Shown in pieces: positions 71-5,271 of a DNA stretch of 64,000 nt; the first letter of the stretch is position 1; each line of letters starts with the position of its first letter. Below the pieces are notes generated by a model, which ran no database searches, was not told the origin of the DNA, and saw only the letters and a list, made by a program, of their open reading frames with translations. Position numbers and translations under genes: made by a program. This DNA is from Tangfeifania diversioriginum (GTDB lineage: Bacteria > Bacteroidota > Bacteroidia > Bacteroidales > Prolixibacteraceae). The stretch covers positions 1 to 64,000 of the forward strand of contig NZ_FQZE01000024.1 in NCBI RefSeq assembly GCF_900141875.1, read 5' to 3'.

Positions 71-1762
71 TTAGCTATACTTTTTTAACAATGCCGAAAT
101 ATCTTCAGCTGTTAGTCCTCGATATTTTTTTCGATTTCTAATTAATTTCGCTTCGAGTATTGACTGCAGCAATAACTTACTTGTGATATTTGTTGAATTT
201 AAAAGATCAAATTCTAATGTCCACAGAGGTGATATAAAGATCTTAGTTTTGGATGATTTATCTTGATATGATTTCTTTTTCTTTTTTGCAGCACTTTTCA
301 ACTCTTCGATATTTTCATCTGCTTTTGGTATTAATTCCTCTTCGTAAATTTTCATTTCTACATCCAAATCAGAAATACAAGCAACAGGAATGTTTAAGCT
401 TTTGTCATCTTTTCGTTGAAAGATTCTAGCATATCTAAAAAAGTACGCATTTGATACATTTACTAATGAAACACCGTAATTTTGTAAAGGTCTATCTAAT
501 ATTTCAGCTATAGTGGGAACAAGAATATTTTCAGCATCACCCTCAACCATGATTACTCCACGAGCAAAGAACAAATTTGCTTTAGTTGCGTCAAGGAAAC
601 GTTCTAAAAATTCATAATCTCCTTCGCCTAATTTTGTTTTTCCCTTAAACATAGGATAAACATCATCTCTATGGCAAAGAATAAGATTGTCAAGTTTAAC
701 CTTAGAAGCTAAAGTAGTGCTATGGGTTGTTAAGATTAATTGTCCATCGGTAATTTTGTTGCTGCCTTGCAACGCATCAATGACTTTTAACTGCGCTTGT
801 GGATGTAAATGGGCTTCTAATTCTTCGATTAATGCCAGTTTTAAATCGCGTCCTTTTGATTGTTTTAGCAATAAGAACTCAGCCGCCATATAAAGCTTAT
901 TCAATGACCCTAAACCAGACTTATTGGAATCACTTACAAGCTTTAAAGTTTTAAGAATGTCGGCTATTTCTTCATCAGTCAATTCAAATGCTGGTTTATT
1001 AGCGAAATTTTGAAATGATAAGGCTTTTAAAAGGTCATAGATATCTTTGGTTATCTGTGCACCATCTTTTTCATCTTGTTCCTTTATTTTAAAATAATCT
1101 CGAATCAGATCATTTGCATCTTTTGCTTTTATTTCAAGTTCATGTTTTTTTCGTTCATGAGTTCCATTCTCATATTTAGTTTTAAAAATGTCATGTCCAC
1201 CTAAAATATCTGCTAATCTTGATTTATAACCTGGCGTTAATTCAGAGAGTGCATCTCTCAAAGGTTTTAGATATGTAACTTTTAAATTCTCGCGAGCTTC
1301 ACCTTCTAATTGAATACCCTCTTCGTCTTGACCGGCTCGGATTATCGAAAAAATCCTATTATCTTTACGATAAGCTGTTAGCCAAACTCTTAATTCATAG
1401 TTACCATCTTTATCAAATCCAATCCATTCAAGAAAGCTACCTCCTTCACGATTAGTAAATCCCTTGAATTTGCACTCAATACGAAGTTCAATTGCTCTTT
1501 GCCTCTTATTTGATTTTTTATCAATAAATTCATAAAAGTCTTTATCTTCAAGCCTAAAATATTCGAGACTTTTTGTATTCAAAACATACTTTATTGCATC
1601 AATAATAGAAGTCTTTCCAGAATCATTCTCACCTATTAATACATTTAAATTCGGTTTAAATTCAATAATTAAATCTGGTTTGGTTTCAGTTGAAATACTA
1701 TTTAAATGGTCTTTGTTACCATATTTTCTAAAATTCCAAAGTTTAAGTTCGGCTAAATACAT
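71..1762 (-). CDS. OLD-family ATP-dependent nuclease (AAA ATPase + Toprim)
   Basis: A 563-residue SMC/ABC-type ATPase fused to a Toprim nuclease domain, the architecture of the OLD (overcoming lysogenization defect) family. Visible: N-terminal strand and Walker A GENDSGKT (Lys50), an ABC-signature-like SGLGSLNK near 282, Walker B LALIEELEAHLHP near 309-321, H-loop His347, then Toprim residues VEGDAE (Glu408) and the DLD pair at 466-468, followed by the WTLEFDL motif near 514. All catalytic positions look intact. Family members cut DNA and several act in anti-phage defence (for example GajA of Gabija). The gene lies 12 bp downstream of an HNH endonuclease gene on the same strand, so the two are probably cotranscribed. 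Only about 45 residues follow WTLEFDL, shorter than usual for the family, so the C-terminus may be truncated. Function in defence is inference. Confidence 0.85.
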   Translation of the reverse strand: MYLAELKLWNFRKYGNKDHLNSISTETKPDLIIEFKPNLNVLIGENDSGKTSIIDAIKYVLNTKSLEYFRLEDKDFYEFIDKKSNKRQRAIELRIECKFKGFTNREGGSFLEWIGFDKDGNYELRVWLTAYRKDNRIFSIIRAGQDEEGIQLEGEARENLKVTYLKPLRDALSELTPGYKSRLADILGGHDIFKTKYENGTHERKKHELEIKAKDANDLIRDYFKIKEQDEKDGAQITKDIYDLLKALSFQNFANKPAFELTDEEIADILKTLKLVSDSNKSGLGSLNKLYMAAEFLLLKQSKGRDLKLALIEELEAHLHPQAQLKVIDALQGSNKITDGQLILTTHSTTLASKVKLDNLILCHRDDVYPMFKGKTKLGEGDYEFLERFLDATKANLFFARGVIMVEGDAENILVPTIAEILDRPLQNYGVSLVNVSNAYFFRYARIFQRKDDKSLNIPVACISDLDVEMKIYEEELIPKADENIEELKSAAKKKKKSYQDKSSKTKIFISPLWTLEFDLLNSTNITSKLLLQSILEAKLIRNRKKYRGLTAEDISALLKKYS

Positions 1763-1774
1763 AATTTGAATGTC

Positions 1775-2560
1775 TTATTGATTTAAATATTCTTTCCTAT
1801 GCCACTCCAAAAACTCCAATCCCGGTTTGGCTTTATAAGGCAGTTTCAATTCTAATCCTTCAAACTGTTTGAACCAGTTGTAGAAAAATGGTTTGGATCG
1901 ATTTTCTTCTAAAATGGGATTTAAGATCACACGGTAACCATTGTCGAAAGAAATTAATCCTTTATCAAAAGCTGTGTCGAAATGAGCACTCAGACAAATT
2001 CCGTTGGTAGGATTAAGTCGGTTTTCGGGATCTAAACTCCAAGGAATAATGTGGCTGGCAAACAAAATTTGCGAAATATCTATTCCAGTGAGGGCGCATT
2101 TTCCTTCATAATTCGCTAAAATCATTGCTCGGAAAAAATTTTGGTTAACGCGCGTTTTTACGTAGCGTTGTTTGTCTTCACCTTTCAAACTTTCTAAATC
2201 GGGTAAATCTTTTCTGTGTTTTTCTTCCACCGTTTTTTCTTCAAAATTGGCTAAGATGATTTCACTTTCAAAGGCTAAATCTTCCCGATTTTCATAAAAC
2301 CGGTCGAAAATTTCAGCATCTTTTTTAGAAGCATTTTTTAACCCTCTTATTCCACGTGCTTGTAATTCCGGATCGAAACTGGCGAAATTGGAAAGTTTTA
2401 ACGCCATTGCATTGGGACTGCGATTAATCAATTTCGCCAATTCAATAACTTTAGGATTTCGGTGATGAATACTACCAAAAGAAATTTTGCAGTATAAATT
2501 AAAAGCAGCAATTAATTCTTTCTCCGACCAATTTTTACGCAATCTATTTGAGGTTGCCAT
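1775..2560 (-). CDS. HNH endonuclease (HNH_2-type, restriction-like)
   Basis: A 261-residue protein with a C-terminal HNH nuclease domain: CALTG at 155-159, the SHI/PW segment with His170, the NPTNG asparagine near 183 and the second histidine in AHFDTAF (His193). This arrangement is that of the HNH_2 putative restriction endonucleases. The N-terminal about 140 residues look helical and charged (NWSEKEL, then a RSPNAMALKLSNF segment that resembles a small DNA-binding module). It is the upstream partner of the OLD nuclease gene, separated by 12 bp. A DNA-cutting role is well supported; the joint role of the pair against phage or plasmid DNA is inferred from context. Confidence 0.83.
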   Translation of the reverse strand: MATSNRLRKNWSEKELIAAFNLYCKISFGSIHHRNPKVIELAKLINRSPNAMALKLSNFASFDPELQARGIRGLKNASKKDAEIFDRFYENREDLAFESEIILANFEEKTVEEKHRKDLPDLESLKGEDKQRYVKTRVNQNFFRAMILANYEGKCALTGIDISQILFASHIIPWSLDPENRLNPTNGICLSAHFDTAFDKGLISFDNGYRVILNPILEENRSKPFFYNWFKQFEGLELKLPYKAKPGLEFLEWHRKEYLNQ

Positions 2561-3879: not shown

Positions 3880-4243
3880 AACCTCACTCTGAAATCATAA
3901 CCTCACCCTGACATCGCAGGCGATGTCTTTCCCTCTCCGTATCGGAGAGGGGTGGGCTGCTGGCTTTGATTGAAGAAAATTGGGTATGGTGCAGTTGTAT
4001 TTTAATCAATACGTTGTTCAGAGCGATCTCTCCCTCTCCGTTTTTGGAGAGGGAAAAGTCCCGGCTTGCCGGGACAGGGTGAGGTTGTGTTGCGGTGGAA
4101 CCAAAACCCAGCCTCCGGCTCCGATTGAAGTTAAGAAAAACCGGGTGTGGTTGCAGTTTGTATTTTAATCAATACGTTGTTCAGAGCGATCTTCTGCCTC
4201 TCCGTTTTTGGAGAGGCACAGCACGTTGCGGCAGGGTGAGGTT
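3880..4243 (+). repeat. Palindromic repeat array A (MITE-like, left of DUF559 gene)
   Basis: The block opens with AACCTCACCCTG (3899-3910), preceded by a degenerate copy AACCTCACTCTG at 3880-3891, and ends with the inverse CAGGGTGAGGTT at 4232-4243. Inside are a head segment and two 161-bp units that start near GTGCAGTTGTATTTTAATC. Each unit holds a CCCTCTCCG-TTTTT-GGAGAGGG type hairpin and the first also a TCCCGGC-TT-GCCGGGA hairpin. The second unit has diverged (CTGCCTCTCC...GGAGAGGCA, compensated on both arms). Reading frames open across it are artefacts of the repeat, not genes. An array of the same design and orientation lies at 4756-5271. Confidence 0.85.
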
Positions 4244-4271
4244 ATTACAAGTGTGAAATTCTAATATTTTT

Positions 4272-4664
4272 CTACAATTCATTTTCTTCAATATATGTAT
4301 CCATCTCTTTTAGTACCTTAAAAATATCATTCAAAATCTCTTCATTGGAAAAACGAATTATTTTCAGTCCGTAGTCTTCCAAATCTGCTGTACGTTTCCG
4401 GTCATGTTCTATTTGTTCTGGTTTTTGATGGATTCCGCCATCAACTTCAATTACCAGCTTTTTTTCAATGCAGATAAAATCAACAATGTATTGGTCGATA
4501 GGGTGTTGGCGTCTGAATTTCAAGTGTTTGAATTTTCTGTTCCGCAGGAATCCCCAGAGCATTTTTTCTGCAGGAGTCAGTTTTTGTCTCAACTTCTGGG
4601 CTTTTTCAACTGTAACAGGTGCAGCATTAAACAGTATTCCGGGTATTTGGCTTTTTTGTGGCAT
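4272..4664 (-). CDS. DUF559 / Vsr-like endonuclease domain protein
   Basis: A 130-residue single-domain protein of the DUF559 family (PD-(D/E)XK superfamily, related to Vsr very-short-patch nicking enzymes). Visible family signature: LTPAEKMLWGFLRNR near 29-43 (Glu33), FRRQHPI near 50-56, YIVDFIC (Asp62), then LVIEVDGGIH with Glu73 and Asp75 and His79, then the RFSNEEIL segment. All candidate catalytic residues are present. It lies between two direct copies of a palindromic array whose ends are inverted repeats: array A starts 28 bp beyond its stop codon, array B 92 bp before its start. The substrate is unknown. A role in spreading or processing the flanking repeats is inference. Confidence 0.85.
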   Translation of the reverse strand: MPQKSQIPGILFNAAPVTVEKAQKLRQKLTPAEKMLWGFLRNRKFKHLKFRRQHPIDQYIVDFICIEKKLVIEVDGGIHQKPEQIEHDRKRTADLEDYGLKIIRFSNEEILNDIFKVLKEMDTYIEENEL

Positions 4665-4755
4665 GTATGAAAGATGTTTTTTTCAAAATTAACAAAATCA
4701 GAAAATTAAACATTAGCTGGTTCAGGTATTCTTAATTTTCTCATCGTGAAATCAC

Positions 4756-5271
4756 AACCTCACCCTGACATCGCGGGCGATGTCTTTCCCTCTCCGTATC
4801 GGAGAGGGGTGGGCTGCTGGCTTTGATTGAAGTTAAGAAAAATTGGATGTGGTGCAGTTGTATTTTAATCAATACGTTGTTCAGAGCGATCTTTCCCTCT
4901 CCGTTTTTGGAGAGGGAAAAGTCCCGGCTTGCCGGGACAGGGAGAGGTTGTGTGCGGTGGAACCAAAACCCAGCCTTCGGCTTCGATTGAAGTTAAAGAA
5001 AAACCGGGTATGGTGCAGTTGTATTTTAATCAATACGTTGTTCAGAGCGATCTTTCCCTCTCCATTTTTGGAGAGGGAAAAGTCCCGGCTTGCCGGGACA
5101 GGGAGAGGTTGTGTGCGGTGGAACCAAAACCCAGCCTTCGGCTTCGATTGAAGTTAAAGAAAAACCGGGTATGGTGCAGTTGTATTTTAATCAATACGTT
5201 GTTCAGAGCGATCTTTCCCTCTCCATTTTTGGAGAGGGAAAAGTCCCGGCTTGCCGGGACAGGGTGAGGTT
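4756..5271 (+). repeat. Palindromic repeat array B (MITE-like, right of DUF559 gene)
   Basis: Same design and orientation as array A: it opens with AACCTCACCCTG (4756-4767), carries the head segment ACATCGCGGGCGATGT plus CCCTCTCCGTATCGGAGAGGGG, then three tandem units with a 161-bp period (GTGCAGTTGTATTTTAATC at about 4851, 5012, 5173), and ends with CAGGGTGAGGTT (5260-5271). Each unit has two hairpins, CCCTCTCC...GGAGAGGG and TCCCGGC-TT-GCCGGGA. Internal unit junctions read CAGGGAGAGGTT, one base off the terminal form. The units are nearly identical, indicating recent expansion or gene conversion. Confidence 0.87.

Follow-up and report, generated by a model that had tools for sequence, protein, structure and literature searches.

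Homing endonucleases of the EDxHD family, such as I-Bth0305I, have been described previously (PMC3943268), and a DUF559 gene has been classed with them (PMC9403480). YcjD has been placed in the PD-(D/E)XK superfamily (PMC1189080), and the Caulobacter DUF559 protein VsrA has been proposed as a mismatch-repair nuclease and linked to the SOS response (PMC12907096). Furthermore, segments that carry a transposase together with DUF559 have been presented as possible recombination hotspots (PMC12308824). In the open-access literature searched, no report was found of DUF559 joined to palindromic repeats.

Several families of short palindromes offer a comparison for the elements considered here. REPIN/RAYT systems likewise combine short palindromes, one dedicated enzyme gene and gene-less copies, but their enzyme is a Y1 transposase, whereas that of the DUF559 elements is a Vsr-fold nuclease. 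The Rickettsia palindromic elements are palindromes inserted in frame in protein genes, as are DUF559 palindromes, and we know of no nuclease gene that accompanies them. The BoxC/PIT/TM repeat of E. coli is of the intrastrand-triplex type, has 23 copies in MG1655 and is unstable between strains; it is described as having neither a known function nor a link to mobile elements, and as always intergenic in E. coli (PMC4666352). The main text of that report contains neither "ycjD" nor any word starting with "nuclease". Finally, whalefall-1 has been presented as certainly an RNA, known from environmental sequences only (PMC2864571).

Here we describe a locus in a 64,000-nucleotide stretch of the Tangfeifania diversioriginum genome (the window) where a DUF559 gene lies between two palindromic arrays (Table 1). 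With a probability of roughly two in three, we take it to be an intergenic representative of a mobile element that is widespread, in which a homing-like DUF559 nuclease is enclosed by palindromes with a pyrimidine arm. Both arrays open with AACCTCACCCTG (3899 and 4756) and close with CAGGGTGAGGTT (last bases 4243 and 5271), and their heads show 95% identity across a 93-bp stretch that starts 16 bp ahead of each. The preliminary description had credited the two arrays with the same start, head, 161-bp units and inverse ends, which holds for both except in two details: in the right array, whose period is 161 bp, both inner units end in CAGGGAGAGGTT, one base off CAGGGTGAGGTT, and the left array has one such unit followed by a diverged second one (spacing 157-163 bp). 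Allowing up to one mismatch, the 12-mer end has 9 matches in the 64 kb, 8 of them within 3880-5271, against 0.19 expected, so that this clustering is not due to chance. With regard to hairpins with a pyrimidine arm, the window contains 8, of which 7 are at the 3880-5271 locus.

Table 1. Features of the DUF559 locus (positions in the 64,000-nucleotide window)
Feature	Position	Strand	Basis or remark
One-mismatch end copy AACCTCACTCTG	3880..3891	+	just beyond the left array
Proposed whole element, repeat-nuclease-repeat, outer ends inverted	3899..5271	.	repeat comparison
Left palindromic array	3899..4243	.	repeat comparison; RF01762 arm matches below gathering score
Left array, start AACCTCACCCTG	3899		followed by hairpin ACATCGC/GCGATGT
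Left array, hairpin CCCTCTCC/GGAGAGGG	3931-3951		followed by a spacer
Left array, second hairpin CCCTCTCC/GGAGAGGG	4032-4053		
Left array, first unit, end CAGGGTGAGGTT	4075-4086		preceded by hairpin GTCCCGGC/GCCGGGAC
Left array, diverged second unit, end CAGGGTGAGGTT	4232-4243		
RF01762 arm, left array	3899-3953	-	sub-gathering score
RF01762 arm, left array	4030-4086	+	sub-gathering score; diverged last arm unmatched
DUF559 (PF04480) Vsr-fold nuclease gene, 130 aa	4272..4664	-	PF04480 E=5e-36
Right palindromic array	4756..5271	.	head as in left array, 161-bp units, end CAGGGTGAGGTT
RF01762 arm, right array	4756-4810	-	sub-gathering score
RF01762 arm, right array	4893-4949	+	sub-gathering score
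RF01762 arm, right array	5054-5110	+	sub-gathering score
RF01762 arm, right array	5215-5271	+	sub-gathering score

The enclosed reading frame reaches 123 bits against PF04480, well over the curated cut-off of 20.6, which places it in the family. It carries the conserved family residues E33, D62, E73, D75, H79 and D88; among 78 sequences, D62 and E73 are found in all 78, H79 and D88 in 76 and D75 in 75. The predicted structure (pLDDT 73, five rows only) resembles 3hrl, an endonuclease-like protein of the DUF559 family (Z 12.8), the catalytic domain of the homing endonuclease I-Bth0305I (Z 10.3 over 92 residues) and Vsr (1cw0; Z 9.5). Moreover, the protein matches I-Bth0305I in a phmmer search (E=8e-4) and a PADLOC homing endonuclease model (3e-6), and the modelled fold is shown to be related to that of I-Bth0305I. 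No transposase was found among the four window reading frames that were profile-scanned, and the enclosed gene matches only PF04480 and a related nuclease model. Elsewhere in the window (71-2560, minus strand), a GajA-type ATPase (PADLOC GajA, E=2e-196) is followed by an HNH protein (PDLC04132, E=3e-84), which looks like a Gabija-like defence pair with the HNH gene in the expected place of GajB.

In the 4.78-Mb genome, the exact 12-mer end has 6 copies, 5 of them at the window locus, and the sole copy away from it is surrounded by no repeats of at least 16 bp. The CCCTCTCC...GGAGAGG hairpin occurs at 9 places and a slightly altered pattern at 8, in each case with 6 at the window locus. An abundance of repeats unrelated to DUF559, which would have counted against the initial idea, is thus not seen for this repeat in this genome, although other genomes commonly hold gene-less copies. 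PF04480 has 8 matches at 7 places, with one gene broken and one reduced to a fragment. At 6 of the 7 places, the two flanks of the gene align to one another with at least 35 bits (the window and contigs C24, C39, C54, C52 and C60), and in the same comparison no such match was seen at the fragment on C33. The repeats vary from one place to another but are built alike, from a C-rich pyrimidine arm and a purine arm with a short loop between them; those on C24 were negative in the strict hairpin test. The five intact DUF559 genes are scattered in the DUF559 tree and are therefore not recent copies of one another, and the genome carries one DUF559 insert in valS. On C33, a 16-kb stretch (L053) holds a BoxC-like hairpin at contig positions 53408-53426, about 2.5 kb from the DUF559 fragment, and also a valS-type hairpin; these are perhaps the remains of elements.

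The association between DUF559 genes and bracketing palindromes was then counted with a hairpin defined as an arm of C and T only, at least 6 bp long with at least 4 C, a loop of 2-14 and a perfect complement, no more than 350 bp away; this definition was fixed after the first loci had been seen and used unchanged from then on. The set of 41 genes, which favours good scores, comprised the window gene, six loci of the same genome and 34 of the 36 best-scoring places elsewhere among the matches listed, two at contig ends having been skipped. Hairpins are present on both sides of 31 of these 41 genes (phylum inferred as Bacteroidota) compared with 0 of 420 positions on the same contigs, kinship being ignored, and on at least one side of 36 compared with 20 of the 420. 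Reading frames taken as controls gave 0/323 for both sides and 27/323 for any side (p=1e-36, kinship ignored), and short ones of up to 200 aa gave 0/112 and 7/112. Vsr genes, the structurally nearest family tested, have hairpins on both sides in 0/30 cases and on any side in 1/30 within a 550-bp search window, where DUF559 genes reach 23/30 and 26/30, three loci being cut by contig ends and mis-centred. The flanking of DUF559 genes by such repeats thus exceeds that of the controls, and the suggestion in the preliminary description that they accompany DUF559 in other phyla was borne out on plasmids. Out of 52 plasmid records, 20 loci were picked for diversity (cyanobacteria, Deinococcus, proteobacteria and one Geobacillus), and 12 of them have hairpins on both sides and 19 on any side, against 0/61 and 6/61 positions and 0/49 and 4/49 reading frames, kinship again being ignored. 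On the other hand, 10 of the 41 genes and 8 of the 20 plasmid loci miss a hairpin on at least one side, the Geobacillus locus on both, which counts against the homing reading. An earlier flank comparison (22/41 vs 4/225 at 40 bits) was superseded, as its 45-bp padding had removed the gene-proximal arms and the valS locus failed it. In phages, the window protein was matched in 2 of 50,697 records. Among the plasmids, the same hpa operon of two Deinococcus species carries a DUF559 gene with palindromes, at a different point in each (L157, L158), and in a Sphingomonas plasmid (L166) DUF559 lies between the gene of the NAD(P) transhydrogenase subunit alpha and the next transhydrogenase gene, one base from the latter.

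At the genome level, 247 genomes were compared, with a DUF559 match called strong at E <1e-15 (102 genomes, out of 138 that had any match among those listed). At least five hairpin copies are found in 38 of the 102 genomes with a strong match and in 14 of the 145 without (p=2e-7, kinship ignored, among the matches listed). The reversed hairpin pattern reaches at least five copies in 1/102 and 5/145 genomes, and at least one copy in 14/102 and 43/145, the opposite direction (p=0.0035). Since 14 of the 145 genomes with a weak or no DUF559 match have at least five copies, and the 23 BoxC copies of MG1655 are described without a link to mobile elements (PMC4666352), the repeats are maintained or multiply even where no nuclease lies close by, which counts against the homing reading.

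The palindromes resemble the BoxC/PIT/TM triplex repeats, which are tied to genome instability, in their pyrimidine arm, purine arm and, often, a candidate mirror third block. In 129 hairpins at 52 DUF559 loci, the mirror third block has a mean match of 0.78, where shuffled flanks give 0.58 and the arm taken without mirroring 0.72; asymmetric arms favour mirror over direct by 66 to 18, and in 69 of the 129 hairpins the third block is better than 95% of shuffles. A third block at 0.8 or above is found in 73/129 hairpins adjacent to DUF559 and in 18/40 elsewhere in the same loci, as would be expected if the latter were gene-less copies. The candidate third block of the window, GGGTGAGG, stands at a distance, with a second hairpin intervening. 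Whereas BoxC/PIT/TM repeats are described as always intergenic and unlinked to mobile elements, DUF559 palindromes lie in frame and bracket a nuclease, with in-frame arms in ValS and other genes. In E. coli itself, a BoxC-like repeat adjoins the DUF559 gene ycjD on the side of fabI. Of 5426 E. coli genomes, 3362 contain 80% or more of the region sapF-ycjD-fabI, and an empty ycjD site was rejected, as two of the remaining genomes, when read, carry an efflux operon instead, which indicates a replacement; an efflux operon in place of the ycjD stretch has been described in E. coli (PMC12817139).

Many of the copies are found inside other genes. In 16 of the 41 genes, the DUF559 domain is part of an open frame of at least 280 aa, although one of these frames contains N runs and some hosts are not clear genes. 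Pfam confirmed the hosts in eight proteins: ValS, LeuRS (two loci), MetH, HsdR, a UvrD/AddA-type helicase, HsdM and RecG. No intein domain was found in these eight Pfam-scanned proteins and no RNA family, and hence no known intron, matched above the Rfam gathering score at six in-frame loci. The palindromes are translated through as peptides, for example PSPTGRGAGGEG (L057), and peptides of the same kind occur in frame without a nuclease at other points of LeuRS in L056 and L059 and of HsdR in L062, as judged by peptide resemblance. In a cyanobacterial plasmid (L154), the DUF559 domain lies within a long gene, with an annotated CDS of 4866 bp. A scan of genome contigs for close relatives returned four loci, all of them Leeuwenhoekiella LeuRS inserts, three in named species, and in Leeuwenhoekiella sp. 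HyVt-349 (L018) the nuclease lies in frame in LeuRS between two palindromic units, in a layout much like that of the window.

The sites of these inserts recur. They lie directly ahead of TIATTRPETI in ValS and of FTTRPDTI in LeuRS, which looks like the equivalent point of two related editing domains. A second LeuRS site precedes TMPGWAGSSWY (L246-L248), RecG is entered between DEQHRFGV and MTATPIPRTLA (L256-L258), HsdR ahead of HTQGSGKS (L062, L250, L259) and MetH directly ahead of the GDVHDIG motif. We take these flanking motifs to be catalytic or cofactor motifs of the hosts. In three other loci (L238, L239, L241), a different in-frame repeat, with peptides like QHD...HSELVSES, occupies the LeuRS loop used by DUF559 elements, so that this loop is a shared landing site.

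Alleles in relatives were read for three of these sites. valS was searched in 81 relatives and its insert site was read in 39 loci, of which four carry a full insert of 429-444 bp (the genome of the window, G263, G291 and G280). Both ends are kept in L123 (93 bp) and in L127 (75 bp), which also keeps a piece resembling the last codons of the nuclease and is thus a deletion derivative. Only the right end remains in L105 and L113, L128 has an unrelated loop, and the remaining 30 loci are empty, with a loop of 15-18 bp. L123 and L127 are gene-less in-frame inserts, a layout that may be comparable to that of the Rickettsia palindromic elements. MetH, searched in 79 genomes, has inserts of DUF559 size in six and also in G236 of another family, confirmed by translation. 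For LeuRS, searched in 120 genomes, 13 of about 20 split loci were read together with two earlier ones: seven have a DUF559 frame and one is frameshifted, two (L235, L236) retain the domain in frame but have lost the palindromes and the conserved residues D75 and H79, as if these inserts had decayed or been domesticated, and two (L240, L242) have other short loops at the insert site. Occupied and empty alleles of one site are therefore present in relatives for the valS, MetH and LeuRS inserts. No target-site duplication is visible in these three genes, where the native loop is partly replaced.

The comparison of relatives for empty sites, proposed in the preliminary description, was thus successful for the valS copy, with its 30 empty loci, and less so for the window locus, where no two-sided empty site was found and one neighbour alone is conserved. 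A relative (G275) has a 63%-identical homologue of the 590-aa window neighbour, with neither an array nor DUF559 on the downstream side; the second neighbour is not syntenic there, which rules G275 out as a clean empty site.

The distribution of the inserts bears on their movement. Carriers and remnants are found at three places among the empties of a 37-row ValS tree with moderate branch support, and this patchiness could also result from one old insertion followed by many losses. In the pair L048/L125, fourfold sites differ at 9/44 positions in the insert and at 81/129 in flanking valS (p=1.3e-6), with the excess identity mostly in its 3' two thirds. At synonymous sites the two inserts are thus closer to each other than the valS sequences around them, so that the valS insert itself moved. 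In the other five valS pairs the difference is weak or absent (p 0.03 to 0.49). The inserts have a dN/dS of 0.10-0.23, a rough estimate as dS is high, and by this measure they are shown to be under purifying selection. Furthermore, nucleases that share a site group for the most part into a single clade (MetH 100/99, ValS 100/95, RecG 100/94, HsdM 100/99, the bootstrap being unsettled), with three changes required for LeuRS and two for HsdR in the nuclease tree. Homing lineages that are site-specific and switch now and then show this pattern. The idea of a mobile nuclease-repeat unit, first raised for the window locus, is supported by the empty, full and deleted valS series and by the L048/L125 insert exchange: the in-frame members have good support for homing-like mobility, and for the window copy we infer it.

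These data are best read as a homing-like element that ends in palindromes, is housed in neither an intron nor an intein and leaves copies without the gene behind. The nuclease would nick or cut an unoccupied target, often DNA that encodes a conserved active-site motif, and repair of the break would then copy the element into the target. The palindromes may mark or protect the element ends, or aid strand invasion, while in-frame copies would occupy tolerated surface loops. The gene-less palindromes of the BoxC/TM and whalefall-1 types would be non-autonomous derivatives. Several results weigh against this reading: no target-site duplication is visible, no clean empty site was seen at the window locus, the exchange signal comes from one valS pair and mostly from one part of its insert, the mirror third block also occurs at hairpins away from DUF559, and a mismatch-repair role has been proposed for Caulobacter VsrA (PMC12907096). 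Such elements share with the EDxHD homing endonucleases a related catalytic fold, insertion at conserved sites and the existence of empty alleles. They differ from them in that no intron or intein was found, a housing that is optional for free-standing EDxHD members, and in that they are bounded by palindromes, form an additional domain within the reading frame of the host and consist of a catalytic domain of about 110 aa alone. Spread of the insert independent of the host gene, which marks EDxHD elements, was seen in one of the six valS pairs.

An improbable alternative, though the strongest of those considered, is a RAYT-like enzyme: DUF559 would nick the single-stranded hairpin or triplex arms at replication and thereby move gene-less palindromes, with its own gene as one cargo. 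This would fit the variation of the arms from one DUF559 gene to another, the existence of gene-less copies, the richness in arms of genomes with DUF559 and the mirror third block, present at the arms above its frequency in shuffled flanks. However, no strand joining is expected from a hydrolytic-nuclease fold accompanied by no other kind of Pfam domain, and the same-site lineages beside conserved motifs indicate recognition of a target. Fold and same-site lineages together favour a homing-type cut of the target over an action on the hairpins, so far as sequence comparison can separate the two.

Less probable still is that the palindromes are moved by a host or repair process that favours hairpins, and that DUF559 was captured by them as a passenger and kept for mismatch repair or restriction. 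The 14 of 145 genomes that hold palindromes without a strong DUF559 match (among the matches listed) and the other repeat in frame at the same LeuRS site agree with this view, as does the tie of Caulobacter VsrA to the SOS response (PMC12907096). Against it, the palindromes associate with DUF559 and not with Vsr genes, which share the fold (Z 9.5) but lack bracketing palindromes (0/30), and the nucleases of one site are mostly a single lineage.

With regard to whalefall-1, the RF01762 covariance model aligns over the full length of six of the seven arms in the window with 28-33 bits, under the cut-off of 37. In the 247 genomes, 31 have a match and 11 one above the cut-off, some of them beside DUF559 (among the matches listed). 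The distance between RF01762 and DUF559 was examined in 72 rows, made up of the top 64 by score and 8 hand-picked ones; 12 of the best 64 are within 500 bp of a listed DUF559 gene, representing seven genes in seven genomes, five of them both-sided. That the arms are RNAs that work with the nuclease or guide it, as omega RNA does with TnpB, is very unlikely: RF01762 does match six of the seven arms and adjoins DUF559 at further loci, and whalefall-1 has been listed as certainly an RNA, but the window matches are under the gathering score, RF01762 is found in 31 of 247 genomes against 138 for DUF559 (among the matches listed), and inverted DNA repeats explain the paired bases equally well. Filed as a noncoding RNA of whale-fall samples, whalefall-1 here looks like the end of a DNA element.

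The homing-like reading is thus carried by the pairing of gene and palindromes, the recurrent in-frame inserts at shared sites of several essential genes and the valS allele series, all of them seen at the level of sequence, and the pairing across bacteria suggests a widespread and overlooked kind of selfish mobile DNA. A broader proposal is possible and is put forward tentatively. DUF559 genes with triplex-prone palindromic ends would form a new selfish class in Bacteroidota, Cyanobacteriota, Deinococcota and Proteobacteria, which homes in frame and without splicing into DNA encoding the catalytic motifs of essential genes; BoxC/TM and whalefall-1 would be its gene-less derivatives and ycjD a resident member. 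The elements offer a candidate partner and origin for two orphan features, the BoxC/triplex repeats and whalefall-1, and since E. coli K-12 has ycjD next to a BoxC-like repeat, the idea is testable there. DUF559, a common domain of unknown function, would become a probable selfish homing gene and, if this is true, homing genes can persist in essential enzymes merely as tolerated in-frame inserts.
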